A stretch of DNA of 60,509 bases, from the IMG/VR virus record IMGVR_UViG_3300046660_000212, positions 1 through 60,509 of that record, one strand, 5' to 3'. Every line of letters begins with the position of its first letter. Position 1 is the stretch's first letter. The notes under the pieces were generated by a model. That model searched no databases and was not told where the DNA came from. It saw nothing but the letters and a program-made list of their open reading frames with translations. The DNA is from a virus. Position numbers and translations under genes: made by a program. This document shows positions 1-60,509 of this stretch, piece by piece.

Positions 1-127
1 GGATGTGTGGCCGAACGGTCGCGATATCCTGAACGAAGTGCCGGGCCTTCGGGTGGTTCAGCGTGTGGGTGTCGATCGCCGTCTGCCAGTGATTGACGCA
101 GACGAGTTCCATTTCCAGGCCGAGTTC
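1..127. repeat. Terminal direct repeat, copy 1 (circular-contig overlap)
   Basis: Bases 1-127 are identical to 60383-60509. The repeat lies inside the coding sequence of a methyltransferase that reads continuously across the joined ends. It is therefore best read as the overlap of a circular assembly (127 is a common maximal assembler k-mer), not as a biological terminal repeat. Unique length is about 60,382 bp. Confidence 0.95.
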
Positions 128-12884: not shown

Positions 12885-13201
12885 GCTTTCCATCGCTCCG
12901 CAACCGCATCCTCGACGCCATCCGCGACCTCACCGATGGCACTGTGTCTCCGAGCGTCCGCCAGATCGCCCAGCACGTCGGGTCCAGCACGACACCAATC
13001 TACAACGCGTTGGAGCAGATGCGCGACGACAAGATGATTTCTTGGACGCCAGGCCGAGCGTGCTCGTTCGTCATCGTCCGCGAAGGCCCACCACGCGAGC
13101 AGATCGAACGCTGGTCCGACGCTGAGCTATCCCGGGTCCAGGCTGAAATCCTGGCCGTCATGGTGGCTCGCGGAACGGCGAAGGGGAGGGCGGCGGCGTG
13201 A
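12881..13201 (+). CDS. Small winged-helix (LexA/GntR-like) DNA-binding protein
   Basis: 106 residues. Residues about 5-62 form a LexA-type winged helix: I-L-D-A-I-R-D-L-T..V-S-P-S-V-R-Q-I-A-Q-H-V-G-S-S-T-T-P-I-Y-N-A-L-E-Q-M, then a beta wing (I-S-W-T-P-G-R-A). There is no protease domain. It precedes the methyltransferase with a GTGA overlap. Likely a local transcription regulator; target unknown. Confidence 0.65.
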   Translation: MSFPSLRNRILDAIRDLTDGTVSPSVRQIAQHVGSSTTPIYNALEQMRDDKMISWTPGRACSFVIVREGPPREQIERWSDAELSRVQAEILAVMVARGTAKGRAAA

Positions 13202-14964
13202 GCGTCAACATCCTCATCGGCGATGTGCTCGCCCGCTTGGCTGAATTGCCGGACGACTACTTCGACATCGTCGTCACATCCCCGCCATATTGGGGCCTCC
13301 GCGACTACGGCGTTGTGGGTCAGATCGGCCTTGAGCCGACCTTGGCCGACCATATCACGAAGATGGTAGAGGTGTTTCGCGAACTGCGGCGCGTCCTGAA
13401 GCCGACCGGCACGTGTTGGATGAACTACGGCGATTGCTACGCCAGCGCTCCGAACGGAAGGAGCGCCGCCGATGGAAAAGCTGCAGGTCTTGATGACCGG
13501 ACGTTTCGCGACAAGCCAATGTCCACAGTCGGCGGCCTGATCAAGGCCAAGGATTTGCTGATGCTGCCGAACCGCTTGGCGGTTGCACTTCAAGAACCCT
13601 TCTACACCGGCAAAATATCGGCCCTGGCCGACCGCGTTTGGCTGGCCTGTCTAATCGACGGCGAGGGCTCTATTTTCGGCGCCACTCAGCCTGCAGGGTA
13701 TCCGACCGGGCGGGATCGAAAATCGGTGCGGTCCCAAGCGCACTTCGCGTCTGGCGTGACAATTTCCAACACCTGCAAGGCGCTCCTTGATCGCTGCGTT
13801 GCCATTACCGGAGTCGGAACGGTCCGTCCGGCCAAGATGGGCGCTACCAATAAGCGGCAGGCATACGTTTGGCGTATCGGAGACTCTAAGGCGAAGGCCG
13901 TTCTTCGCGAGGTTTACCCTCACCTAGTGGCAAAGCAGCACGAAGCGCGACTCGCACTCGGCATGCCGCCGAGCGGTGACGTAGCTAAGGCCTGTTTTGA
14001 GGGCCTCAAGGCATTGCACAGGGGCGAGGTTCCAGGCATCGACCGCCCAGCACCGACGAGCCTCTACGAACAGGGCTGGTTCGTGCGCGCGGAATGCATC
14101 TGGGGAAAGCCGAACGCCATGCCCGACTCGTCGGGATCGCAGCGGCCAGCCATCGCGCATGAGAAAATCTTCATGCTCACCAAGTCGGCCGATGCGGACA
14201 TCTGGCGGGCGCGGGATACAGGCGAACTGTCGTTCGCCCCCGACCTGCAAGAGCGCTGCGCCCTCGTGACCGACCCCAAGCGTGACGGCGCGCGGTGGCT
14301 CAAGATCGGGAGCTATTACGACGCCGACGAGGTCAAGCAGGGTCGCGCCAGCGACGAGGACGCGAACGGCTACCGGGGCGGCTCATACGTGGGCGGCTCA
14401 CCAGGGCCGCGCACCACGAAGGGCAATCGGCGCGTCAAGATGCCGGACGGCTGGGATACCGGCGCGGGTGGTCATGGCTCCTTCCATCGCGAAGGCCGCG
14501 GCAAGGGGAAAACAAAGGAAATTCGCGGGCGTTCGACGCATGGGCGCCACACGCTCGGAAACGCCATCCCATCCGCAGAACGGCGCGCGCCGAACATCGA
14601 CCCAGCGCACGCTGAAGGCAAGAGCCACACAGGCCTTATGGCCCTAGGTCGCGGTGAGGGCCGCTATCTCCGAAACTTCGAACCTGCCCCGCTCACGGTC
14701 TGGGAAATCGCCATTGAGCCGTTCAAGGGCGCGCACTTCGCGACGTTCCCGACGGAGCTTGCACGGCGATGCCTGCAGGCTGGTTGTCCGAAGGGCGGCA
14801 AGGTGCTCGATCCGTTTGGAGGCGCGGGGACCACGGCACTGGTCGCAGACCGCATGGGTTTGGACTGCACGCTGATCGAACTGTCGCCTGAATACGCCGA
14901 CATCGCTCGCAAGCGCATCAACGGCGACATGGGTTTGTTTGGAACCGTCGAGGTTGCCGCATGA
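13198..14964 (+). CDS. DNA methyltransferase (N4-cytosine/N6-adenine, beta class) with in-frame LAGLIDADG insertion
   Basis: 588 residues, GTG start overlapping the previous stop. Motif IV T-S-P-P-Y-W-G-L-R-D-Y lies at 27-37; motif I D-P-F-G-G-A-G-T-T lies near 538-546, so the order IV then I marks a permuted beta-class enzyme that methylates an exocyclic amine. Between A-V-A-L-Q (about 132) and Q-G-W-F-V-R (about 292), where such enzymes normally run straight through, sits an extra block of about 155 residues. It holds L-A-C-L-I-D-G-E-G-S at 149-158, the LAGLIDADG signature, followed by an I-S-N-T..L-L-D-R pattern and a basic end. No intein splice residues are apparent. It may be a homing endonuclease fossil, or a domain recruited for target recognition. 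Confidence 0.85.
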   Translation: MSVNILIGDVLARLAELPDDYFDIVVTSPPYWGLRDYGVVGQIGLEPTLADHITKMVEVFRELRRVLKPTGTCWMNYGDCYASAPNGRSAADGKAAGLDDRTFRDKPMSTVGGLIKAKDLLMLPNRLAVALQEPFYTGKISALADRVWLACLIDGEGSIFGATQPAGYPTGRDRKSVRSQAHFASGVTISNTCKALLDRCVAITGVGTVRPAKMGATNKRQAYVWRIGDSKAKAVLREVYPHLVAKQHEARLALGMPPSGDVAKACFEGLKALHRGEVPGIDRPAPTSLYEQGWFVRAECIWGKPNAMPDSSGSQRPAIAHEKIFMLTKSADADIWRARDTGELSFAPDLQERCALVTDPKRDGARWLKIGSYYDADEVKQGRASDEDANGYRGGSYVGGSPGPRTTKGNRRVKMPDGWDTGAGGHGSFHREGRGKGKTKEIRGRSTHGRHTLGNAIPSAERRAPNIDPAHAEGKSHTGLMALGRGEGRYLRNFEPAPLTVWEIAIEPFKGAHFATFPTELARRCLQAGCPKGGKVLDPFGGAGTTALVADRMGLDCTLIELSPEYADIARKRINGDMGLFGTVEVAA

Positions 14965-44930: not shown

Positions 44931-45247
44931 CCGAACCCACCGACACTCCCGTCAATGCGCCGTTCCCGCGCCCGACGGTCATGGAACAGATCAAGGGCTT
45001 TGTTGGCGATTTGGCCCGGCCGATCGCCATCATCGGAACCACCTACGGGTTCAACGTCGCCCTGATCAAGGCGGCCGACAAGATCGGGCCGGACGCCACG
45101 GCCGCGGCGATCTTCATCACCGCTGCTGGTGGCATCCTGGCCACCCTCTACGGCGCCAAGGCCTGGGAGGTCATCCAGGGCGGCAAGCACGCCGCGAATG
45201 TCGAGATCGCCAAGGCGACAACCGCGACGGGTGAGGCGCAGCCGTGA
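44927..45247 (+). CDS. Holin-like protein
   Basis: 106 residues. M-E-Q-I-K-G-F-V-G-D-L-A-R-P at about 19-32, then two hydrophobic spans (about 33-50, 58-78) and Y-G-A-K-A-W-E, a layout shared with alphaproteobacterial phage holins. Would form the inner-membrane lesions that release the endolysin, encoded next with a GTGA overlap. Confidence 0.65.
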   Translation: MTEPTDTPVNAPFPRPTVMEQIKGFVGDLARPIAIIGTTYGFNVALIKAADKIGPDATAAAIFITAAGGILATLYGAKAWEVIQGGKHAANVEIAKATTATGEAQP

Positions 45248-45870
45248 CCACCCTGACCAAGGCCCCAGCCTTTTTCGACTACCTGCGGACCAATGACATG
45301 CTCGGCCCTGTGCTGAGCCCTGGCGAGGTCGAGGGGCTGAACGTCATCACGGCCGCCGCTGGCGTCGCGGGCTGGCCCATCGCCTACACCGCCTACGCCC
45401 TGGCCACGGCCTACCACGAAACCGCTCACACCATGCAGCCGGTCAAGGAGATCGGCGGCGAGGACTACTTCCGCCGAATGTACGACATCAGCGGCCGACG
45501 GCCTGATGTCGCGGCGCGGCTCGGTAACACCCAGATCGGCGACGGCGCCAGGTACGCGGGCCGGGGCTACGTCCAGCTAACCGGCCGGTCTAACTTCGCG
45601 CGCGCCACTCGCGAAGTCGGCCAACCCTTGATCGACAATCCAGACCTGGCCATGAACGACGCCATTGCTGCCGCGATCATGGTGCGGGGCATGTCCGAAG
45701 GCTGGTTCACCGGCCGAAGCCTGAAGACCTACCTGCCCAGCCTCGCGCCGGCCACGCGCAACCAGTTCGTGGAGGCCCGCAGGATCATCAACGGCCAGGA
45801 CCGAGCGCAGGACATCGCCGGCTATGCGCTGGACTTCCAAGCGGCGTTGCAAGCTGGAGGTTGGTCATGA
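45244..45870 (+). CDS. Endolysin, glycoside hydrolase family 19
   Basis: 208 residues from GTG 45244. The GH19 core is clear: A-T-A-Y-H-E-T-A-H-T-M-Q-P-V-K-E with the catalytic Glu in H-E-T, R-Y-A-G-R-G-Y-V-Q-L-T-G-R-S-N-F, and N-P-D-L-A. Cleaves peptidoglycan glycan strands. No signal peptide or SAR helix, so release depends on the holin. It is followed by the spanin pair. Confidence 0.88.
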   Translation: MTTLTKAPAFFDYLRTNDMLGPVLSPGEVEGLNVITAAAGVAGWPIAYTAYALATAYHETAHTMQPVKEIGGEDYFRRMYDISGRRPDVAARLGNTQIGDGARYAGRGYVQLTGRSNFARATREVGQPLIDNPDLAMNDAIAAAIMVRGMSEGWFTGRSLKTYLPSLAPATRNQFVEARRIINGQDRAQDIAGYALDFQAALQAGGWS

Positions 45871-46501: not shown

Positions 46502-47731
46502 TCAGCCCTTGACGCAGACAACTTGCTTCAGGGTATGGACGATCTCGACATGGTCGGCCTGCGCGGCCATCACGTCGTCAATCGGCTTATAGGCTCCCGG
46601 CGTTTCGTCGATCACGTCCGCGTCCAAGCGAGCCTCCACGCCAACCATGGCCTCGGCATGGTCCTCAAGCGAAAACCGGCGCTTGGCCTCAGTTCTGGAC
46701 ATGGCGCGGCCGGCGCCGTGCGAGCACGACGACAGCGATTCCATAAGCGGCGATCCTGCCTTGCCGCGCACGATGAACGACTTGGCGCCCATCGAGCCCG
46801 GGATGATCCCTAGATCGTCGGGGGTAATCCGCACCGCGCCCTTTCGGGTCACCATGACCTCGGAGCCAAAATGGCGCTCCTGAGAGACGTAGTTATGGTG
46901 ACAGTTCACAGCCTCACAGTCACATGTGAAGGCCTTCGGCACAGTGACCGACAGGGCCTCCAGCGCAGCCGACATCATCAGTTCGCGATTGTGACGAGCG
47001 AACCTTTGCGCCCATGACAGCGCCTTCATGTAGTCGCCGAAAAGTTCAGAGCCTTGCGGGATGTAGGCGAGGTCTTGATCGGGAAGATTGATGAACCAGC
47101 GGCGCATCTCTTCCTTGGCGCGCTCGATGAAGTACGAGCCGATCCGGTTCCCAATGCCGCGAGAACCGCTGTGCAGCATGATCCAAACGCGATCTTCGGT
47201 ATCCAGGCAAACCTCAACGAAGTGATTGCCGGTCCCCAGCGTGCCGAGGTGAGCCGGAGCCCGTTGAGAGGCCTGGGCGATCTTCGGATGTTTGGCGACA
47301 ATCTCGGCGAGATCCCGGCCAAGCGATCCCTTCATCAGGAAGTCCGCGCCCTTTTGGACGCTGCCCCACGCGCCGCGGTCGTTGGCGCCACCATTGTCGG
47401 TGCGACCATGCGGGATGCGCTGCTCGATTGCTGTACGGAGGCCGAATAGGTTATCGGGAAGGTCGGAGGCCGTGAGGGTGGTCCGTTGGGCCATCATGCC
47501 GCAACCGATATCTACGCCCACGGCGGCTGGGATGATCGCCCCCTTGGTGGGAATCACCGACCCCACGGTCGCACCCATGCCCCAATGTACGTCGGGCATG
47601 ATGGCGACGTGCTTGTGAATGAACGGCATCGCCGCGATATTGTCGAGCTGAGCGCGGGCCTGGGTCTCGACTTGAACCCCGTCGATCCACGCTTTGATGA
47701 GGCCGCCACGGGCGCCCTGAAAAACTTGCAT
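46502..47731 (-). CDS. rtcB: RtcB-family RNA ligase
   Basis: 409 residues, AAGGAG ribosome site 8 bp before the ATG. All signature blocks are present: P-D-V-H-W-G-M-G (Asp47, His49), G-V-D-I-G-C-G-M (Asp74, Cys77), G-T-L-G-T-G-N-H-F (His170), L-H-S-G-S-R-G (His187), H-H-N-Y-V-S, and S-H-G-A-G-R with His338, the residue that takes GMP in RtcB. The enzyme joins 2',3'-cyclic phosphate or 3'-phosphate to 5'-OH RNA ends using GTP. It lies 52 bp downstream of a tRNA-Pro gene on the same strand and converges on the late operon. No archease or RtcA gene is nearby. Confidence 0.93.
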   Translation of the reverse strand: MQVFQGARGGLIKAWIDGVQVETQARAQLDNIAAMPFIHKHVAIMPDVHWGMGATVGSVIPTKGAIIPAAVGVDIGCGMMAQRTTLTASDLPDNLFGLRTAIEQRIPHGRTDNGGANDRGAWGSVQKGADFLMKGSLGRDLAEIVAKHPKIAQASQRAPAHLGTLGTGNHFVEVCLDTEDRVWIMLHSGSRGIGNRIGSYFIERAKEEMRRWFINLPDQDLAYIPQGSELFGDYMKALSWAQRFARHNRELMMSAALEALSVTVPKAFTCDCEAVNCHHNYVSQERHFGSEVMVTRKGAVRITPDDLGIIPGSMGAKSFIVRGKAGSPLMESLSSCSHGAGRAMSRTEAKRRFSLEDHAEAMVGVEARLDADVIDETPGAYKPIDDVMAAQADHVEIVHTLKQVVCVKG

Positions 47732-47783
47732 TCGCCGTCTCCTTTAGTCGATCACCCGCACTGCATGGGAAATCGGGTTGGAT

Positions 47784-47861
47784 TGGTCTGTGTGGCGAGA
47801 TTCGAACTCGCGACCCCTCGTTTCCAAAACGAGTACTCTGACCTGTCTGAGCTACACACAG
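47784..47861 (-). tRNA. tRNA-Pro (anticodon UGG), CCA encoded
   Basis: Minus-strand cloverleaf: acceptor CTGTGTG/CACACAG (7 perfect pairs), D stem GCTC/GAGT, anticodon stem CTCGT/ACGAG with loop TTTGGAA (anticodon TGG), T arm GCGAG-TTCGAAT-CTCGC, discriminator A and an encoded CCA. 75 nt plus CCA. rtcB follows in the same direction. Confidence 0.92.
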
Positions 47862-47977
47862 TCACGCCCGCAAAAGCGGGTTGGGCAGTGCAGTCAGGGT
47901 CGCGGTCGAAGGATCATGGAGGCGAAACTAGCATCTGACTGGATCACAGTCCAGCTTGTCGTCTTGAGTTAAACCAT

Positions 47978-48013
47978 GGGCCTGGCCATCCTTCAGGGTG
48001 GTCCGGCCCTTTT
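47978..48013 (+). terminator. Stem-loop with T-run between leftward genes
   Basis: 14-bp stem with one mismatch (47978-47991 and 47996-48009, TTCA loop), followed on the plus strand by TTTT. It lies just downstream of the leftward gene ending at 48021; the T-run faces rightward, so it may block stray late transcription. Confidence 0.6.
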
Positions 48014-48020
48014 CTGCGTT

Positions 48021-48197
48021 TCAGCGCAGCACGATTTGAACGGTCGCATCTTCGAAATCTCCGGCCGCGTGGCGCTCACGCATGGCCTTCACGGAACTGG
48101 CGATCTGGCGCCGGGCCATCTCATCGCGCTCTTCCGGCGTGAGACTGTTCACGTAGGCGACGGCGCGGGCAAGAAGGTCAGAGAGGCGCTGTTCCAT
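48021..48197 (-). CDS. Small helical hypothetical protein
   Basis: 58 residues from ATG 48197: E-Q-R-L-S-D-L-L-A-R-A-V-A-Y-V-N-S-L-T-P-E-E-R-D-E-M-A-R-R-Q. A GGGG tract precedes the ATG. Upstream of the tRNA/rtcB pair on the same strand, possibly in one transcript. Function unknown. Confidence 0.5.
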   Translation of the reverse strand: MEQRLSDLLARAVAYVNSLTPEERDEMARRQIASSVKAMRERHAAGDFEDATVQIVLR

Positions 48198-48360
48198 CCC
48201 CGAACTTTGCCATGAAATGGTTAGAGATTCCAGCGGTCTCGCGCTATATTGGTCGGGCTGCGGAAGGGGTGTCCTTACGACAACCAACTGGCTGCTCAAA
48301 TGTGGAAGCCAGAGACCAAATAGGCCCCCTCGTCGCCGATGCCGTCAGGTCCGCCGGGGC

Positions 48361-48459
48361 GCAGCACTAAGACCTCTCCGGAGGCCGCCAGGGTTCCTAG
48401 GCCTGGCGTAGTAGCGTACCGTGGCGCGAACCGGCTCGATCCGGTGTAGTGCTGCACCA
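48361..48459 (+). other. tRNA-like fold ending in CCA
   Basis: GCAGCAC (48361-48367) pairs with GTGCTGC (48449-48455), followed by A-CCA. Enclosed are a 4-bp stem CCTC/GAGG, a 6-bp stem GCCAGG/CCTGGC (48387-48392, 48402-48407) and a T-arm-like ACCGG-CTCGAT-CCGGT (48430-48445). The T loop is one base short and 3 nt separate it from the acceptor, so it is not a standard tRNA. It may be a decayed tRNA or a tRNA mimic; chance is possible. Confidence 0.35.
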
Positions 48460-49018
48460 GGGGCGGCATGCGCTGGAGAAAACGCGGGTAGCTGGAAATC
48501 CAGTGACAGCGACCAGGGGCCGCCCCTTACTTCTCATCAACCGCGCAAAGAGCCAGACGGTGGCCGACCTGAAGCCCAGCACCATGCGTCCGTACTTCGC
48601 CTCTCTCAGCCGCTCCCGTCGCGCTTCTCGGGTGTTGCGGGCTGTATACGGGGAAACGCGCCGGTTCGCGGTGTGCGTGGTTGCTGACGACCCGCCCGCG
48701 CCAATGCCCACGAAGACGAAGGCGACGAGCAACCGCAATCGGGGCCGGGCAGGCTTTCCTAAGCCGCCCAACATCCTTCAGCAACTCACCAAGATCCAAA
48801 ACGGCCTCTGCTATCTGTGCGGATCGGAATGGTACCCTGGCCATGCCCTGCTATGGCCTACGCTGGACCATGTCGTACCTCACTCCAAGGGCGGTCGACG
48901 GTCCGGGAATCTTCTTGTCGCGCACGCTTGCTGCAACGTGGCCAAGGGCAATCGCAGTCCAAAGCCGTGCGAGATGATCTACCTGGCCGCCGCTAATGCG
49001 ATGCGGGTGGCGGCGTAA
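48449..49018 (+). CDS. HNH endonuclease
   Basis: 189 residues from GTG 48449; ATGs at 48587 or 48704 are alternative starts. The C-terminal 80 residues carry the HNH core: L-C-Y-L-C-G-S-E-W, L-D-H-V-V-P-H-S-K-G-G, N-L-L-V-A-H-A-C-C-N and K-G-N-R. Zinc ligands and the D-H pair are intact. The Ser/Arg-rich N-terminal half is less convincing, which is why the start is left open. Isolated rightward gene in the accessory region, beside a tRNA gene and rtcB; possibly a mobile homing-type gene. Confidence 0.7.
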   Translation: MLHQGRHALEKTRVAGNPVTATRGRPLLLINRAKSQTVADLKPSTMRPYFASLSRSRRASRVLRAVYGETRRFAVCVVADDPPAPMPTKTKATSNRNRGRAGFPKPPNILQQLTKIQNGLCYLCGSEWYPGHALLWPTLDHVVPHSKGGRRSGNLLVAHACCNVAKGNRSPKPCEMIYLAAANAMRVAA

Positions 49019-49039
49019 GGCGGTCATCCGGCGCCGCTC

Positions 49040-49108
49040 CTCATCCACCTTGTGGATCACCAAACCCCACCTGACGATCAGCAAAGCCGGTTGTGGATCG
49101 TGGATGAG
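49040..49108. promoter_or_regulatory. Inverted repeat with two DnaA-box-like sites
   Basis: CTCATCCAC (49040-49048) is inverted as GTGGATGAG (49100-49108). TGTGGATCA (49051-49059) and TGTGGATCG (49092-49100) read TGATCCACA and CGATCCACA on the other strand, 8/9 and 7/9 matches to the DnaA box TTATCCACA. The region lies between convergent genes. Confidence 0.4.
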
Positions 49109-49111
49109 CGG

Positions 49112-49423
49112 CTAGTACAGCTTGGCCGCCGAAAGGCGATCGAGGAGTCCCTTTTGGACCGGGCCTATAGCGGCGCAGGTCATCGTGCCGCTCGGAATTT
49201 CGGTTCTGCCAGCGTCGCGCACAGCGTAATAGCCGACACCGTTCTCCTCGGCTTCTTCCAGGATCGCCTGGAGGCCTTTGAAGTCGGCGACCTGAAGCCC
49301 GATCAGTGGACCGCTATCGGAGGCACCCAGACCAAGCACCGCATGGCAGGCCTGGGCGATCTCCTTGCCGCGCCGCATACCGAGGTCCCGCCGCATCACG
49401 ACATAGATCGTCGGCTCGCTCAC
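49112..49423 (-). CDS. Peptidyl-tRNA hydrolase, PTH2 family
   Basis: 103 residues from GTG 49423, overlapping the previous stop (GTGA). The PTH2 pattern is clear: Y-V-V-M-R-R-D-L-G-M-R-R-G-K-E-I-A-Q-A-C-H-A-V, then V-R-D-A-G-R-T-E-I-P-S-G-T-M-T and A-I-G-P..L-L-D-R-L-S-A-A-K-L-Y. PTH2 enzymes, best known from archaea and eukaryotes, free tRNAs from peptidyl-tRNA. It is the last gene of the leftward operon controlled by the ribbon-helix-helix regulator, within 2 kb of the tRNA-Pro and rtcB genes. Unusual cargo for a phage. Confidence 0.85.
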   Translation of the reverse strand: MSEPTIYVVMRRDLGMRRGKEIAQACHAVLGLGASDSGPLIGLQVADFKGLQAILEEAEENGVGYYAVRDAGRTEIPSGTMTCAAIGPVQKGLLDRLSAAKLY

Positions 49424-49752
49424 ATCTCCACCCCTGCAAGCTGAAGCGCGGCGCGAAGCCTTTCGGCCGCGATCGAAACGCGTTCTGGCGCACTGTCTGG
49501 CCAATTCCATCCGTTGCGCTGAACATCCATGGCCAGCTTCAGGCCGACCTCTTGGATAAACGCCAGTTGCGCCGCCTCTACCAGGGCCGCGCGCTGGGCG
49601 ATTAGCTCAGCCTCGCGGGCTTCGGCGGCGGCGGCGCGATCTTCGGCGGTCTTGGCCCAATCCAAGTTCTGCTGGCGCTGGACGTCCGCCCATTCGCAGT
49701 CGGAGCGAAGCTGGACATTCTCAGCCTCCAGCGCTTCTATGTCGATAGCCAT
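49420..49752 (-). CDS. Coiled-coil hypothetical protein
   Basis: 110 residues. N-terminal coiled coil (M-A-I-D-I-E-A-L-E-A-E-N-V-Q-L-R and T-A-E-D-R-A-A-A-A-E-A-R-E-A-E-L-I-A-Q-R-A-A-L), sharing ELIAQRAALVEA and its DNA with the 188-residue protein at 4593-5159. C-terminal W-N-W-P-D-S-A-P-E-R. Phage-type early protein; function unknown. Confidence 0.55.
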   Translation of the reverse strand: MAIDIEALEAENVQLRSDCEWADVQRQQNLDWAKTAEDRAAAAEAREAELIAQRAALVEAAQLAFIQEVGLKLAMDVQRNGWNWPDSAPERVSIAAERLRAALQLAGVEM

Positions 49753-49989: not shown

Positions 49990-50754
49990 TCAGGCCTCCT
50001 TAGGAGTAAGAGCAGCAGTAAGGGCGACGGCAAGAACCCGTCGCGCTTCCGGTTCGAAATGCACCCATGAAGCCTCGACGTAGGCCGCCGCTTCAGCAGT
50101 CAGGTCGTCGTCAAGGTGCATGTATCCACCTGGAGCCCGCCCCTCTTCGAATTGAAGCAACGCCAATTCGCGAGCCGCCCGCTCCACCATGTTGTCGGGA
50201 ATCTCCGGGGAGGGGGATGTGGCGACCATGGCGCGATAAATCGCGACACAGACCATGCCGTCGTCCCAGTCCGTGGTCACGCCAGCGACATAGTTCATGT
50301 TGTCGTTGTCGCGCTGGTCGCAAACGGCGAGGCCGGCGTCGATCATGGCCCTCGGCAAGCCGCTGTCGGAGAAGGATCTGGCGCCGTCGTCAACCGGGAC
50401 CAGCTTCCACGTGGCCTTCCGGATCGGTTGCGCCACCTCTGCGGCGACTTCCTCATTGCCGCTGGCCGGCGTCGTCGATGCGGCCGCGCGAGGAGCGATG
50501 GCCGTCATGACGTCACGGGCCATTTCCATCGCGTCGTTGCCATAGACGTCGAGCAGGGCTCGGCGCGGCCCAAGGGTGGAGGCGAACATGGCGTAGTCGT
50601 GGAGGCGGCTCCGCAGGGCGTCTCCGATGGGGGCGAGCGCAGCCGTCGCAGGGGCGTCGGCCTCATCCCGCGAGCCGCTGGGGCGGTCCTGAGGGTCCCG
50701 GGAGGCGCTGCACCCCTCCCCAAGATCCTCTCCTGCCTTGTCTGGAGTGGTCAT
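49990..50754 (-). CDS. Phage-type modular hypothetical protein
   Basis: 254 residues, acidic and Ala-rich. Residues about 88-116 (A-S-T-T-P-A-S-G-N-E-E-V-A-A-E-V-A-Q-P-I-R-K) recur almost unchanged in the 520-residue protein at 55618-57180, and the 80-bp DNA segments differ at about six positions. The C-terminal part resembles proteins with A-I-Y-R-A-M and E-A-R-R-V-L. Function unknown. Confidence 0.5.
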   Translation of the reverse strand: MTTPDKAGEDLGEGCSASRDPQDRPSGSRDEADAPATAALAPIGDALRSRLHDYAMFASTLGPRRALLDVYGNDAMEMARDVMTAIAPRAAASTTPASGNEEVAAEVAQPIRKATWKLVPVDDGARSFSDSGLPRAMIDAGLAVCDQRDNDNMNYVAGVTTDWDDGMVCVAIYRAMVATSPSPEIPDNMVERAARELALLQFEEGRAPGGYMHLDDDLTAEAAAYVEASWVHFEPEARRVLAVALTAALTPKEA

Positions 50755-52510: not shown

Positions 52511-52556
52511 GATTGCAAATCCGTGCACCCCGGTTCGATTCCGGGCCGGGCCTCCA
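52511..52556 (+). other. attP: attP core: 3' half of a tRNA-Cys gene
   Basis: Contains the anticodon loop TTGCAAA (GCA, Cys), T arm CCCGG-TTCGATT-CCGGG, acceptor 3' strand CCGGGCC, discriminator T (typical of tRNA-Cys) and CCA, then a T-rich tail. The 5' half of a tRNA is absent: the expected ACGGA of the anticodon stem is GCTGA here, with two mismatches. Integration would restore an intact host tRNA-Cys gene. Confidence 0.85.
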
Positions 52557-52719: not shown

Positions 52720-53946
52720 TCACGGACGCGGGGCATGGGTAATCACCCGCTCAGAGGCCTCGGCCATGGCCTGATCACCCTCGGCGTCGGTCCAGAGGTG
52801 GCCGTAGAGATCCATGGTCATCGCCAGGGTCGCGTGACCCATGAGCTTTTGCAGCCGCTTGGGTGTGACGCCGCTTTCGATCTGGATGCTGGCGTAGACG
52901 TGGCGCAGGGTGTGGGGTCCGAAATCGACGGCTTGACGCTTGAAGCGGCCCTTCTCGACGATACCGCCCAATCCCGCACGAATGAGCATCGGGTTCCAGC
53001 ACAGGCGGCGGAAGTCGGAATAGCTCCAGAACGGCCCATGGCGAAGCCCAGGAGGCGGCGGAAACAGGCGCCCCGTCACACGCTCGCCCATAACCGTCTC
53101 AGCCGCCACAGGCCCCCTTGCTACGCGCCACGCACGTAGAGCGGCGGCAGTTGATGGGCCTAGAGGGACATCGCGCTCGCCGTCCTCGCTTTTGGTCTCG
53201 CCAAGGGTGACGTGTCGGCTGCATAGCCGCTCGCGGATTCCGATCAGACCGCCCCCGCCAGATCCGTCCTGGCTTGGCCGGCGAAGATCAAGAGCCGAGT
53301 CCGCGGCGCCCAACATCTCAGATATGCGTAGGCCGCCGAACATCAGCAGATAGACAACGGCCGCGTCGCGCTCGCCACGCTCACCCTCTGGAGCCGCGCG
53401 CAACAGCGCCTGCAGATCAGCCTTCGGCGGGATTTCGACTTTCGATCCGCCTTTGCGCCGACGTTTGGCGACGACCTTGGCGGCCTCGGCTGGGTTGTTG
53501 GTCAGCCAGCCGTTGCGCTGGCCGTGCTCGAACCACGCGGAAAGGGTCGTCTTGACCCGGCGCGCAGTCTCGGCCGACGCGCTGGCGACTAGGCGGTCAA
53601 GGCATTGCTGGACGTCAGGCGCGGAGAGGTTGGCCAGCGTAAGGGCGGCAATCGGGTCGAAGGCGACGTGCACCTTCAGGTGACTGTCGTAGCCGTCCAG
53701 GGTGCGCTGCGAGCGCTCGCCCGATTTTACAAGGCCGTCGAACCATCTATTGTGGTCCAGAGCCAAGCCCTTGACCGTCATGTCGGCCGATCCGGTTGCT
53801 CCGGCGCCGTCGTTCTTCTTGGCCCACGCATCAGCGTCGCCCTTGCGCGGGAAGTTCTTGGACTTGCGCTTGCCGTCCAGGGTCTTGATCGTCGCCCGCC
53901 AGGCCGTTTCCCCCGATGGGTGCTTGACCTTGCGAACGTTGGCCAT
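52720..53946 (-). CDS. int: Tyrosine integrase
   Basis: 408 residues from ATG 53946 (AGGGGGG upstream). The N-terminal arm-binding region (about 1-60) and core-binding SAM-like domain (about 65-160) precede the catalytic domain with G-L-R-I-S-E-M (Arg I), H-T-L-R-H-V-Y-A-S-I (His-x-x-Arg) and G-H-A-T-L-A-M-T-M-D-L-Y-G-H (His and nucleophile Tyr). All five catalytic positions are visible. The attP core and arm sites lie immediately downstream, and the excisionase-like gene immediately upstream. Confidence 0.93.
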   Translation of the reverse strand: MANVRKVKHPSGETAWRATIKTLDGKRKSKNFPRKGDADAWAKKNDGAGATGSADMTVKGLALDHNRWFDGLVKSGERSQRTLDGYDSHLKVHVAFDPIAALTLANLSAPDVQQCLDRLVASASAETARRVKTTLSAWFEHGQRNGWLTNNPAEAAKVVAKRRRKGGSKVEIPPKADLQALLRAAPEGERGERDAAVVYLLMFGGLRISEMLGAADSALDLRRPSQDGSGGGGLIGIRERLCSRHVTLGETKSEDGERDVPLGPSTAAALRAWRVARGPVAAETVMGERVTGRLFPPPPGLRHGPFWSYSDFRRLCWNPMLIRAGLGGIVEKGRFKRQAVDFGPHTLRHVYASIQIESGVTPKRLQKLMGHATLAMTMDLYGHLWTDAEGDQAMAEASERVITHAPRP

Positions 53947-53954
53947 GTGCCCCC

Positions 53955-54170
53955 CTAGGCGGACTTCGCCGGCAGCGTTTCTGGCGCATGAAACCACGCG
54001 TCCAACTCGGATTTGAAGGCGTAGACACCCGCGCCCTCGCGCCGCCGGATCGGGATGGTCCACCCCTCCTCGCGCGCCTGGTAGACCTTGCGCGGCTTCC
54101 AGCTTCCGCCGAGATAGGCCGCTATAGCCTCGGCGCCGTCAAGACGATCGTCATTGCCGCGCATCATCAC
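53955..54170 (-). CDS. xis: Excisionase-like winged-helix protein
   Basis: 71 residues. L-D-G-A-E-A-I-A-A-Y-L-G-G-S-W-K-P-R-K-V-Y-Q-A-R-E-E-G then I-P-I-R-R-R-E-G-A-G-V-Y-A-F-K-S-E-L-D-A-W, a MerR/AlpA-type DNA-binding fold as in small excisionases. Its stop is 8 bp before the integrase ATG, and its ATG overlaps the previous stop. Confidence 0.75.
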   Translation of the reverse strand: MMMRGNDDRLDGAEAIAAYLGGSWKPRKVYQAREEGWTIPIRRREGAGVYAFKSELDAWFHAPETLPAKSA

Positions 54171-55617: not shown

Positions 55618-57180
55618 CTACTCTCCCATAACCGTAGAATCGGAGGCGTCCTCGGGCTCGTTTTCCCACGGCACACGCGAGGCGAAGGCTTCAAGGGCCT
55701 TGTCAATGGCATCATACGCTTCGCTGTCGCCTGTCTCATAGGCGTAGACCCGAGCCGCGATAACGAGGTCGATCACGTCTTGAGGAAGCGCCTTCCGGAT
55801 CGGTTGAACCACCTCTGCGGCGACTTGCTCATTGCCGCTGGCCGAGGTCGTCGATGCGGTCGCGCGAGGGGTGAACTTCGGCATGTCGCGCCAACCCACC
55901 AGTTTGTCGCGCGCGCCAATTGCGAGCGGGAGGTAGCGGGAGCCGTCACCGTCGTCGTTGGCCTCTGCTTCCTGCCAGCCGGTGACGGCGCGATCCTCCT
56001 CGTCCTCGAACCTAAGAACCATCTGGTTCAGGTAGAGGGCAGGAAAAGTGTGGACCTTGCCCGTGTGCGCGCGATGAACGGCCACGATGAAGTAGGCGTC
56101 GCTGCCAACCGGCACCTGTGGCGTCTCATCTGGTGAGCGCCAATCGTCGGCGATCGCCACCGTCGTACTCACATCGGGAGCCGCGCCGAGAAAGCCGCTG
56201 TACGCCGCTCGCGCCTGCGCCCATCCAAACTGACCGCTCGAATGCGGAAGCTGGTCCCTGGCCTGGCCGATAGCCGCCGACATCATGTCGTTTGTAGCTT
56301 CGGCGGGAACCAGGACCCATCCATCGGGCGAGGTGAACGGGGCAAGCGCGCTTGCGTCCGCGCACGGCTGGCTTCGGGCGGCCCCCTGATCTCCCTGCAC
56401 CCCCTTATCCGGTATAGCCAGAGCAGCGGTGAGGGCGGCGCGACCTTCAAGGCTGTCGGCCGAAACCTCGATCATGGGCCAGGGCTCATCCTTGCGGACA
56501 CAATTGGGCGCGTGATCGCCCCGCCAGCGGCAGGTTTTGCACACGCTGTCCGTGTCGCGAACCATCACGGTCTTAGGCCCCGTGCCCACTTCCAGGCCCA
56601 GGGCGGCACAGATGCGTTCGAACTTCGCGACGGGGATCAGGACGTAATCGGGGGGGTGCTTCTCCGACGTCATGTAGTCGTCGCCGAAGCCCGCGAGTGC
56701 CTTCATCAGCTCCTCTGAGACAGGGACGGCTACTGGAGAGGTAGAGGCGGCGAGTTCGGGATTACAGGGCTTGCAGGCCGTTCCAATACGCTCCGTTGAA
56801 CCGCATTCGAAGCAGGGCTCCACCTCTCGCCCGGCATCAGGGCGGGCGGCGAGCATGGCGCGGTAAATGTCTACTGCGACGCCAGCCTTGGTCCGCCCGT
56901 TGTTGTCTCGCATCCGATCATCAAGGATGATGCGGCGAGGGGCGTCGATCATTGGCCCGGTCGGCTCAGCCGGAACCAAGACCCAGCCCTCAGACGAGGC
57001 GGCCATGCGGGAGGGGCGGGAGAGGATGGTGTCGGCGAAGGCCCATGCCTCCCATTCAAGGTCTTCCGTTGGGCCATCGAACGGCTCCACGAAAACCCCG
57101 TGATCGTTCTTCACGGCTGATCCTTGGAAAAGCCGTGCGATCTCTTCCCGCTCACCGGTGGTGCTGTGTTGGTTGGTCAT
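55618..57180 (-). CDS. Large modular phage early protein
   Basis: 520 residues from ATG 57180. It looks like several small phage modules strung together: two copies of G-W-V-L-V-P-A-E-x-T (about residues 67 and 290), I-Y-R-A-M-L-A-A-R-P, a Cys cluster C-F-E-C-G-S..C-K-P-C, a second C-K-T-C-R-W-R-G, and a C-terminal segment nearly identical to part of the 254-residue protein at 49990-50754. These modules usually occur as separate proteins of unknown function, so this may be a fusion by recombination. Confidence 0.55.
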   Translation of the reverse strand: MTNQHSTTGEREEIARLFQGSAVKNDHGVFVEPFDGPTEDLEWEAWAFADTILSRPSRMAASSEGWVLVPAEPTGPMIDAPRRIILDDRMRDNNGRTKAGVAVDIYRAMLAARPDAGREVEPCFECGSTERIGTACKPCNPELAASTSPVAVPVSEELMKALAGFGDDYMTSEKHPPDYVLIPVAKFERICAALGLEVGTGPKTVMVRDTDSVCKTCRWRGDHAPNCVRKDEPWPMIEVSADSLEGRAALTAALAIPDKGVQGDQGAARSQPCADASALAPFTSPDGWVLVPAEATNDMMSAAIGQARDQLPHSSGQFGWAQARAAYSGFLGAAPDVSTTVAIADDWRSPDETPQVPVGSDAYFIVAVHRAHTGKVHTFPALYLNQMVLRFEDEEDRAVTGWQEAEANDDGDGSRYLPLAIGARDKLVGWRDMPKFTPRATASTTSASGNEQVAAEVVQPIRKALPQDVIDLVIAARVYAYETGDSEAYDAIDKALEAFASRVPWENEPEDASDSTVMGE

Positions 57181-57949: not shown

Positions 57950-58491
57950 TGGCTTTGCTCCCCACCAGCATCTCCCCCAGAGGGGCGGGTATGGGCGCGC
58001 GAGACAGCGGCAGAGGCCCGCACAATGACTTCAAGGGGTAGCCGCACGGTCAAGGTCTCGGACGTACCGCTGACGATCTGAGCGCCCTTGACGTTGAATC
58101 CCTCCAGCGCCCCCACCAGTTCCCCGATGGTTTCCGCCTGTTCCTTGGCGACCTGTTGGGACGCACGTAGAGCGGAGACCGTGGCGGGGAACGCCTTCAA
58201 CACGTCCACGATGAGCTTTGTGCGTGCCCTGGAAGCCCGTTGGCGTTCACCGCCAGCCATGACCGACGCAAAGCCGTTTAGCTCAACGGTGCGCCCGTCA
58301 GGCCCCGTAACGCTGTGATATTCATCAATAGTCCAGTCGAGATTTTCGGCCTCAGTGGCCAGCCCATCCAGGTCTATCCCTGTAGTAGGAGTGGGAGTTT
58401 TCATGTCGTTGTCCTTGGGTTCAGCCGGTTCCGACCTTTCGCCCGCTAGCCGGTCACATGGCGCGGTGCGATCTGGAGAAGAGGGGGTCAT
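57946..58491 (-). CDS. Hypothetical helical protein
   Basis: 181 residues from ATG 58491 (ATGA overlap with the methyltransferase stop); an internal ATG at 58404 has AAGGA upstream and is also possible. Contains I-D-E-Y-H-S-V-T-G-P-D-G-R-T-V-E-L and a helix S-Q-Q-V-A-K-E-Q-A-E-T-I-G-E-L-V. No family recognised. Confidence 0.5.
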   Translation of the reverse strand: MTPSSPDRTAPCDRLAGERSEPAEPKDNDMKTPTPTTGIDLDGLATEAENLDWTIDEYHSVTGPDGRTVELNGFASVMAGGERQRASRARTKLIVDVLKAFPATVSALRASQQVAKEQAETIGELVGALEGFNVKGAQIVSGTSETLTVRLPLEVIVRASAAVSRAHTRPSGGDAGGEQSQ

Positions 58492-60509
58492 GCCGCCTCC
58501 GTCGCAACAGCGTGAACGGGCGCGGCGGCTGTCGCCTTGGCGGCCCGACGCCGCGGCACCGCATCGGCCATGATCGCGCCGACGCAGGCTTTCATCTTCG
58601 CCACCGAGACGGCGTTGCCGATCTGCTTGATCTGGTCGGTCTTCGTGCCGGCGAACTCGTATTCCTGGTCTTCGCTGGTGAAGCCCATCGCGGCGGCCAG
58701 TTCGTGCGGCTCCAGCATCCGGAACAGAATGTCGTAGCCCTCCAGGCCCTCGACGGCCTCGACCACGCCCTCGACTAGACCACCCTTGCCCAGGGTAAGG
58801 CCGGTCGGCGCCGGCTGCACCAGGTCGTGGGTGCGCGGCCCCTGACCTTCGCGCTCGCCGAACTGAGCTGTGACGAAGGCAAGTTCGCCCCGATTGGCGC
58901 CCGTGGCGGTCGGGATCGGCTCCTGGTCGACGTCGCGGGCCCGACTGGAGGTGTCGTGGTGCGTCACCGGCATGACCATGGCGAACTCGCCGCCCTTGGC
59001 CGTCGTCATGGTCGGGAGGGGCTCGTTCGTGGAGCGAGGGCCAGGGCCGCCGTTCTTGTTGGTGACCGGCACGACGACGCCGAAGCGGGCCACGGCGGTG
59101 AGTGTCGGAAGCGGGACTTGGTCCGTGGTGCAGGTCTCGCCGGATCCGGAGCCGTAGTAGGGCGAGATCAGTGCGTGGGCGCCATCCGTCGTGATGCTCG
59201 GGACCGGGCTCGAGGTTTGGCGTGCAACACCACCCGAAGCCTGGGAAAGGATGAACGGCTCGACGACAGCGAACTGCCCGCCGCCGGCCGTCAGAGCTCC
59301 CAACGGGTTGTCCACGCTGCTGACGCGGCGGGTGTCGGCCGTCGCATCGCCGGGCGAATTGCCGTGGGCCACGGTGGTGATGAAGGGCTCGACGAGCATG
59401 GGTCGCGCGCAGTCGGGATGCTCGACCGCTCCTGCGCCGCCGGTCGTGATCGTCGGGAGCGGATCTGCGGACGTGCGCGCCACGCCGCTGCTGTGCTGAG
59501 ACAGGACCAGCGGCTCGGCCAGCCAGACTCCGCCCTTGGTGTCCAGGGTCGGGACCGGCGCCGCCGAGACGCCCTTGGCCTGGTTGCCCTTGCGGCCATT
59601 CATGATCACGGGCTCAGCGAGGGCGACGTGACTTGCCTCGGCCGTCTGGGCGAACAAGGGCGCATCCATGTCCCTGGCGGTCGCGCCCTTCTTCATGTTG
59701 AGGGCGATCGGCTGGGCTAGACCGATGTGCGTGCCTTGAGCGGCGATCGCGGGCACGGGCAAGTCGAGGCCCTGGGCCGCCATGTGGTTGCGCAGGATGA
59801 CCAGATAGGGCTCAGGCCAGTTGTGCTTGGTGGCGCCGGCGTAGATGCGGGCCAGCGTCTTCGGGGCCAGTGGCTTCTTGCGGTTCAGGATCGACCGGCC
59901 CTTGAGGTTCCAGTCGATGATCTCGCGAGCCGGGCGCCAGGGCTGCACGGTGGGGAACAGCGCCAAGCCCTCGTCGGGCCGCCGCATGTGGGTCGGCGTC
60001 GGGTAGCGGATCCGCTTGCCGTCGCTGCGGGCCATCAGAATGAAGCGCTGACGCGTGGTGGCGTCGCCGTAGTCGGCGGCGTTCAGCTTGCGCCACTCCG
60101 GATCGAAGCCTAGCCGGCGAAGGGTGTCGATCCAGGCATTGAAGTACTCGCCCTTGCGCGCCTGAATAGGTTTGCCGGTCTTCGGATCGACCGGCCCCCA
60201 GCTGGTGAACTCCCAGACGTTCTCGATAATCAGCCGGGTGACGCGAAGCTCGGTCAGCCACGTGATGATGTGCCAGGGATCGCTCCGCTGCTGGTCCGAG
60301 GTCGGCTTGCCGCCGCGCGCATTGGAGTGGTGGGTGCACGTCGGCGACGCCATCAGAAGGTCTAGATAACCCTCGGGCACCAGGATGTGTGGCCGAACGG
60401 TCGCGATATCCTGAACGAAGTGCCGGGCCTTCGGGTGGTTCAGCGTGTGGGTGTCGATCGCCGTCTGCCAGTGATTGACGCAGACGAGTTCCATTTCCAG
60501 GCCGAGTTC
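58488..60509 (-). CDS. DNA cytosine-5 methyltransferase (main part; N-terminus at 1-208)
   Basis: 673 of about 700 residues. In full-length numbering: Cys85 in S-P-T-C-T-H-H-S (motif IV; the usual P-C-Q is P-T-C-T here), E-N-V at 123-125 (motif VI), T-T-R-Q-R at about 178-182 (motif VIII), E-L-A-A-A-M-G-F (motif IX) and Q-I-G-N-A-V at 656 (motif X). Between VIII and IX lies an expanded region (about 290-600) made of roughly eight degenerate units with a P-[VLI]-P-T-[ILM]-T-T core every 35-45 residues, where target recognition domains sit. Likely protects phage DNA from restriction. Upstream genes of the early operon feed into it across the contig junction. Confidence 0.88.
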   Translation of the reverse strand, partial: ELGLEMELVCVNHWQTAIDTHTLNHPKARHFVQDIATVRPHILVPEGYLDLLMASPTCTHHSNARGGKPTSDQQRSDPWHIITWLTELRVTRLIIENVWEFTSWGPVDPKTGKPIQARKGEYFNAWIDTLRRLGFDPEWRKLNAADYGDATTRQRFILMARSDGKRIRYPTPTHMRRPDEGLALFPTVQPWRPAREIIDWNLKGRSILNRKKPLAPKTLARIYAGATKHNWPEPYLVILRNHMAAQGLDLPVPAIAAQGTHIGLAQPIALNMKKGATARDMDAPLFAQTAEASHVALAEPVIMNGRKGNQAKGVSAAPVPTLDTKGGVWLAEPLVLSQHSSGVARTSADPLPTITTGGAGAVEHPDCARPMLVEPFITTVAHGNSPGDATADTRRVSSVDNPLGALTAGGGQFAVVEPFILSQASGGVARQTSSPVPSITTDGAHALISPYYGSGSGETCTTDQVPLPTLTAVARFGVVVPVTNKNGGPGPRSTNEPLPTMTTAKGGEFAMVMPVTHHDTSSRARDVDQEPIPTATGANRGELAFVTAQFGEREGQGPRTHDLVQPAPTGLTLGKGGLVEGVVEAVEGLEGYDILFRMLEPHELAAAMGFTSEDQEYEFAGTKTDQIKQIGNAVSVAKMKACVGAIMADAVPRRRAAKATAAAPVHAVATEAA
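60383..60509. repeat. Terminal direct repeat, copy 2
   Basis: Identical to bases 1-127; marks the circular overlap inside the methyltransferase gene. Confidence 0.95.

Follow-up and report, generated by a model that had tools for sequence, protein, structure and literature searches.

Peptidyl-tRNA hydrolases of the PTH2 family have previously been described in jumbo phages, for which it was proposed that they recycle peptidyl-tRNA left by tRNA cutting at the ribosome (PMC7824862). Earlier annotations of such a protein exist for phage RaK2 (PMC3622015) and for Agrobacterium phage Atu_ph07 (PMC6102473), while the peptidyl-tRNA hydrolase annotated in phage XacN1 is of unstated type. Although annotated repeatedly, a phage PTH2 was not found to have been put to an experimental test in the open-access papers searched. 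Phage-borne PTH2 and its proposed role are, accordingly, mostly known already, and the compact form described below represents a modest variant.

The PTH2 gene and its compact form

The window, i.e., the whole stretch of 60,509 nucleotides analysed here, carries a compact PTH2 gene (Table 1), the observation of which is real and well above chance. Translation of the minus strand of 49112-49423 yields 103 residues followed by a stop codon, with the GTG start at 49423, and the plus strand of the same interval holds an open frame unrelated to PTH2. The start codon overlaps the stop codon of the upstream ORF, as is typical of an operon. The first-pass annotation, which names no strand, had assigned the protein to the PTH2 family on the basis of two motifs (G-K-x-x-A-Q..H-A-V and D-A-G-R-T-x-I-x-x-G-T), and had named failure to match PF01981 as grounds for rejecting it. 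Both motifs are present in the translation (as GKEIAQACHAV and DAGRTEIPSGT), and PF01981 (PTH2) covers residues 6-97 with an E-value of 6.6e-21 and a score of 75.1 bits, far over the cut-off (23 bits). The protein scores under both NCBIfam Pth2 equivalog cut-offs (68.8 vs 82 bits for TIGR00283 and 69 vs 126 bits for NF003314), and its nearest PHROG, 1866, has its function listed as unknown.

Structural comparison substantiates the family assignment. The top matches of a PDB sequence search are Pth2 chains (E-values down to 1.8e-11), and the AlphaFold2 model, with a mean pLDDT of 95, contains the four strands of the Pth2 alpha/beta fold (residues 5-11, 40-45, 65-69 and 81-89). When this model was compared to the PDB using Foldseek, significant matches were returned only for archaeal and human Pth2, the best being 1xty (TM 0.88, E=2.3e-9). 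Furthermore, K20, Q24, H27, D70, T74 and T82 are invariant in 36 relatives of phage, bacterial and archaeal origin; the conserved GK-Q-H, D-x-G-x-T and GT residues of the pocket are presumably catalytic. A codon comparison with a 70%-identical copy on a viral contig (L002) returned a dN of 0.23 and a dS of 1.03 (dN/dS about 0.23), with 51 of the 90 differences at third positions, indicating that the PTH2 frame is real and under purifying selection.

Table 1. Positions of the features of the window discussed in the text
Feature	Position	Strand	Evidence or remark
Compact PTH2 peptidyl-tRNA hydrolase gene, 103 aa, GTG start	49112..49423	-	PF01981, AlphaFold2, Foldseek, dN/dS
Upstream ORF, 110 aa, without family	49420..49752	-	4-base overlap (GTGA) with PTH2 start
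HNH endonuclease ORF, convergent with PTH2, between PTH2 and tRNA-Pro	48449..49018	+	PHROG HNH/endonuclease VII
tRNA-Pro (UGG), complete, C1-G72, CCA encoded	47784..47861	-	ARAGORN; Rfam
RtcB RNA ligase, 409 aa	46502..47731	-	PF01139 E=1.5e-126; PHROG tRNA splicing ligase
Tyrosine integrase	52720..54063	-	PF00589 E=4.6e-12; PHROG integrase 1.2e-56
Probable attP core, 43 bp	52514..52556	+	Identical to 3' part of tRNA-Cys(GCA) gene
Terminal direct repeat, copy 1 (circular closure of assembly)	1..127	+	
Terminal direct repeat, copy 2	60383..60509	+	

Both the alignment and the AlphaFold2 model show that the window protein lacks 11-14 residues by which helix alpha-1 is connected to strand beta-2 in other PTH2 proteins. 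The absent part, comprising helix alpha-2 together with a W...K segment that is otherwise conserved, is typical of the family and lies outside the definition of the profile; given this loss, the substrate or activity of the compact form may differ. The compact clade is represented by four members, namely three phages (the window, L002 and L015) and a Rhodospirillaceae chromosome (L094). L002 (12 kb) differs from the window in its terminase and portal genes, which are of the GpA type as read from its ORFs; L015 is a 59-kb contig that has the gene at window positions 45244-45870 in common with the window. The clade spans unrelated phages, which argues that the PTH2 gene moves between them. L094, flanked by metabolic genes, is the nearest cellular relative at 54% identity.

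In the final tree the compact clade (support 100/99) and a separate archaeal clade (100/96) were recovered, the branch from the former to all other PTH2 proteins being long (2.6 changes per column). This tree left out L006, a long-branch row that fell inside the compact clade in a quick tree; its placement was regarded as unreliable. A viral scan with a dedicated compact profile revealed no clear further members, and the same profile returned few weak matches in the order of the Rhodospirillaceae MAG. A proposed signature separating bacterial and phage (DAGxTE) from archaeal (DAGxTQ) proteins was also dropped, as the Pth2 proteins of P. horikoshii and A. fulgidus have TE.

A profile scan identified 287 PTH2 relatives in IMG/VR. 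A further 266 came from genome contigs, among them Methanobrevibacter but also many bacteria, including Chitinophaga, Myxococcota, Gammaproteobacteria and Planctomycetota; mycobacteriophages and Sinorhizobium phages are among the named phages that possess the gene. Since PTH2 is common on bacterial chromosomes, the term ‘archaeal/eukaryotic’ names the family and not the donor, and the archaeal or eukaryotic origin implied by the first-pass annotation is not supported as stated. With regard to the donor, which it suggested finding by phylogeny, the nearest known cellular relative is bacterial, while for the deeper origin of the compact form a grouping with archaea is not rejected (AU p=0.20) and an archaeal affinity may be retained as a candidate. 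A phage PTH2 need not imply an archaeal or eukaryotic donor, which corrects that idea.

The phage genome and the neighbours of PTH2

The record has identical ends of 127 bp and corresponds to a circle of about 60.4 kb; a terminal repeat of this type is the usual sign of a circular assembly, and the phage genome is apparently complete. Its genes include those for portal, head, terminase, tail-fibre, primase/helicase, RecT and integrase functions, the structural genes being podovirus-like. PTH2 is therefore phage-borne, in agreement with the first-pass annotation. A host gene captured at a prophage edge was ruled out, as phage genes occupy both contig ends, which are joined by the repeat.

The 43 bp beside the integrase gene represent a probable attP because of their identity to part of a tRNA-Cys(GCA) gene, an intact matching copy of which was found in another viral contig. 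Judging from position, integration at this site would yield a prophage bounded on one side by the integrase and on the other by the run of minus-strand genes to which PTH2 belongs, and such a location fits an accessory region. A search for the host attB with a 46-bp pattern, allowing up to 2 mismatches, returned 0 matches in 385 genomes of the class to which the Rhodospirillaceae MAG belongs.

Within 46502-49423, i.e., in less than 3 kb, PTH2 is accompanied by tRNA-Pro and RtcB, as in the cassette of the Mycobacterium prophage prophi86-1, in which tRNAs, an RF-1-domain protein, RtcB and PTH2 follow one another in that order within 3.5 kb. The Rfam tRNA match (47787-47861) scores 65.6 bits, and rtcB lies about 52 bp downstream of the tRNA gene. 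PF00472, representing the RF-1-domain release protein, was unmatched in the whole record. The three genes do not form one simple operon, because an opposite-strand HNH gene separates PTH2 from the other two. The Pfam HNH match of this ORF is under the cut-off, translation may begin at a later position in it (e.g., near 48704), and it is regarded as separate from the salvage function discussed below.

Of note, the interval between PTH2 and tRNA-Pro also contains, just upstream of the HNH ORF or in its first codons, a full-model match to the Rfam DUF3800-VII RNA (48461-48530, plus strand; 35.6 bits vs a cut-off of 36.2, E=3.4e-4), which folds better than 200/200 shuffles (z=-3.3). This RNA and the HNH ORF possibly constitute an RNA-plus-endonuclease mobile unit. 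Elsewhere in the window, a 99-bp direct repeat with 86% identity (50414-50512 and 55790-55888) is located inside two different genes and is perhaps a duplicated coding segment. The domain of a 588-residue N6/N4 DNA methyltransferase (13198-14964, plus strand) is interrupted by what reads as an endonuclease inserted in frame, since a PHROG family of HNH endonucleases is matched by residues 145-254, in which a motif resembling LAGLIDADG (LACLIDGEGSIF) occurs. A C5-cytosine methyltransferase of 668 residues (58488-60494, minus strand) has a long central region between its catalytic parts, composed of repeated similar units of the type EPFI/EPLV...SGVAR...PLPTITTGG.

Association with RtcB and tRNA genes and the probable role of the PTH2 protein

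RtcB was found in 4/48 PTH2 contigs of at least about 50 kb and in 0/35 random contigs of at least about 40 kb; two of the four RtcB-bearing contigs are near-copies, and these counts alone are without significance. In the flanking regions, three independent IMG/VR lineages have RtcB at a distance from PTH2 of up to about 7 kb, as compared to 0/238 random loci. Such co-occurrence was rejected as proof of a module, being suggestive only. In two related phages (L023 and L024) the RtcB frame adjoining PTH2 is broken in two pieces about 740 bp apart, which suggests an inserted intron or other element. Another locus, on a contig of Mycobacterium sp. AZCC_0083 (L173), combines 13 tRNA genes, RtcB and PTH2 within 16 kb, resembles the prophi86-1 cassette and is possibly a prophage or plasmid island.

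tRNA genes were present near PTH2 in 20/40 large phages, as compared to 9/40 when a different region of these contigs was taken (McNemar p=0.027) and to 6/26 random large contigs (Fisher p=0.04). An apparently strong enrichment of about 29-fold relative to random viral loci was discarded as mostly an effect of contig size; with the same-contig and large-contig controls it amounts to about 1.7- to 3-fold, so that the size-matched association is modest. In a Pfam tally of the neighbours of PTH2, RNA ligase, CCA-adding enzyme and Ro60-type proteins each account for 2 of 133 and RtcB for 1, and among the 25 families listed for the controls CCA-adding enzyme accounts for 1 of 114; these counts are descriptive only.

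Recycling of peptidyl-tRNA, as put forward by the first-pass annotation, is the likeliest role. The product of the gene is probably a catalytically active peptidyl-tRNA hydrolase of the PTH2 type, by which tRNA is salvaged as part of a small tRNA-maintenance cassette. Its substrate would be peptidyl-tRNA that has left the ribosome, whether by drop-off or by stalling after tRNA or rRNA damage during infection; the enzyme would cleave the ester bond of this molecule and return the freed tRNA to the pool for phage translation. The cassette, situated in the accessory region beside attP, would unite PTH2 with the phage tRNA-Pro and with RtcB, the latter resealing cleaved RNA; RNA cleavage is to be expected in this setting because RtcB adjoins. 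While the family, the fold, the conserved residues, purifying selection, the phage location and the neighbours can be read from the data, catalysis and substrate as well as joint work with RtcB and a benefit to the phage are inferred. Several observations weigh against this reading, namely the NCBIfam scores, the loss of alpha-2 and the W...K segment, the weak RtcB numbers, the intervening HNH gene, the modest tRNA association and the other compact-clade loci, near which neither RtcB nor tRNA genes were found in the DNA searched.

A simpler proposal, to which we accord a distinctly lower likelihood, is that PTH2 merely tops up host Pth1 in the translation burst of the phage, independently of RNA damage and RtcB. 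As 44/48 PTH2 phages are without RtcB, the enzyme must be useful alone, and Pth clears drop-off peptidyl-tRNA (PMC10192219); however, host Pth1 should be there already, and the nearby tRNA and RNA-repair genes suggest a more specific setting. The lambda bar scenario invoked by the first-pass annotation belongs here. PMC12542629 cites a connection of lambda to Pth, and the analogy is plausible, but it finds no support inside the window, where RtcB and tRNA-Pro point to tRNA repair or salvage at least as much.

A more far-reaching version of the cassette reading, which we hold to be rather unlikely, regards the compact clade as a mobile, phage-adapted hydrolase whose substrate range might have been changed by the loss of alpha-2, e.g., in favour of tRNAs that anti-phage RNases or acetyltransferases of the host have damaged or blocked. 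Together with RtcB and a replacement tRNA, such a hydrolase would make up an anti-defence module restoring tRNA. Slightly less credible still is that PTH2 might deacylate N-acetyl-aminoacyl-tRNAs produced by host GNAT toxins of the TacT or AtaT type, allowing translation to resume during infection. Bacterial Pth reverses the acetylation of glycyl-tRNA by TacT (PMC9241777), and toxin-antitoxin systems can act against phages (PMC7438911); yet the reversal concerns Pth1 and not PTH2, making the case one purely of analogy, and a GNAT toxin or antitoxin was not found among the window genes scanned. The least probable option, that hydrolysis has been lost or altered in the compact protein and that its role is now a different one, e.g., the binding of RNA or protein, would accommodate the missing 11-14 residues and the long branch, but the three phage copies retain every strongly conserved residue of the pocket and the predicted core fold is intact.

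Comparison with known PTH2 systems

The window protein can be compared with four groups of known proteins. The PTH2 proteins of jumbo phages, including RaK2 and Atu_ph07, belong to the same family and are often encoded beside tRNA-related genes, with recycling as the proposed function (PMC7824862); they are, however, mostly 107-155 residues long and reside in very large genomes, whereas the window protein of 103 residues lacks alpha-2 and belongs to a 60-kb temperate phage. Closer in genome size (about 60-80 kb), and including temperate members, are the mycobacteriophages with PTH2 (prophi86-1 gp143, Sandalphon gp80, Baka gp70 and Myrna gp36). For example, prophi86-1 resembles the window in having RtcB and tRNAs beside PTH2, yet differs in its RF-1-domain protein, and the mycobacteriophage proteins are of the full-length form, share about 35% identity with that of the window and fall in a different clade.

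The archaeal and eukaryotic Pth2 enzymes (S. solfataricus 1xty, A. fulgidus 3erj and human bit1 1q7s) have the core fold, the conserved lysine, the aspartate and the threonines in common with the window protein, from which they differ in identity (27-32%), in the 11-14 additional residues and, for the archaea, in forming their own clade. The Rhodospirillaceae protein L094 shares both the compact clade and the missing segment, but differs in its chromosomal location among metabolic genes and in an altered C-terminal stretch. The PTH2 protein of the window is small and well predicted, and in this temperate phage of 60 kb it has two obvious partners only (RtcB and one tRNA); its compact form is a natural deletion variant that could reveal the part played by the alpha-2 segment in Pth2 enzymes.
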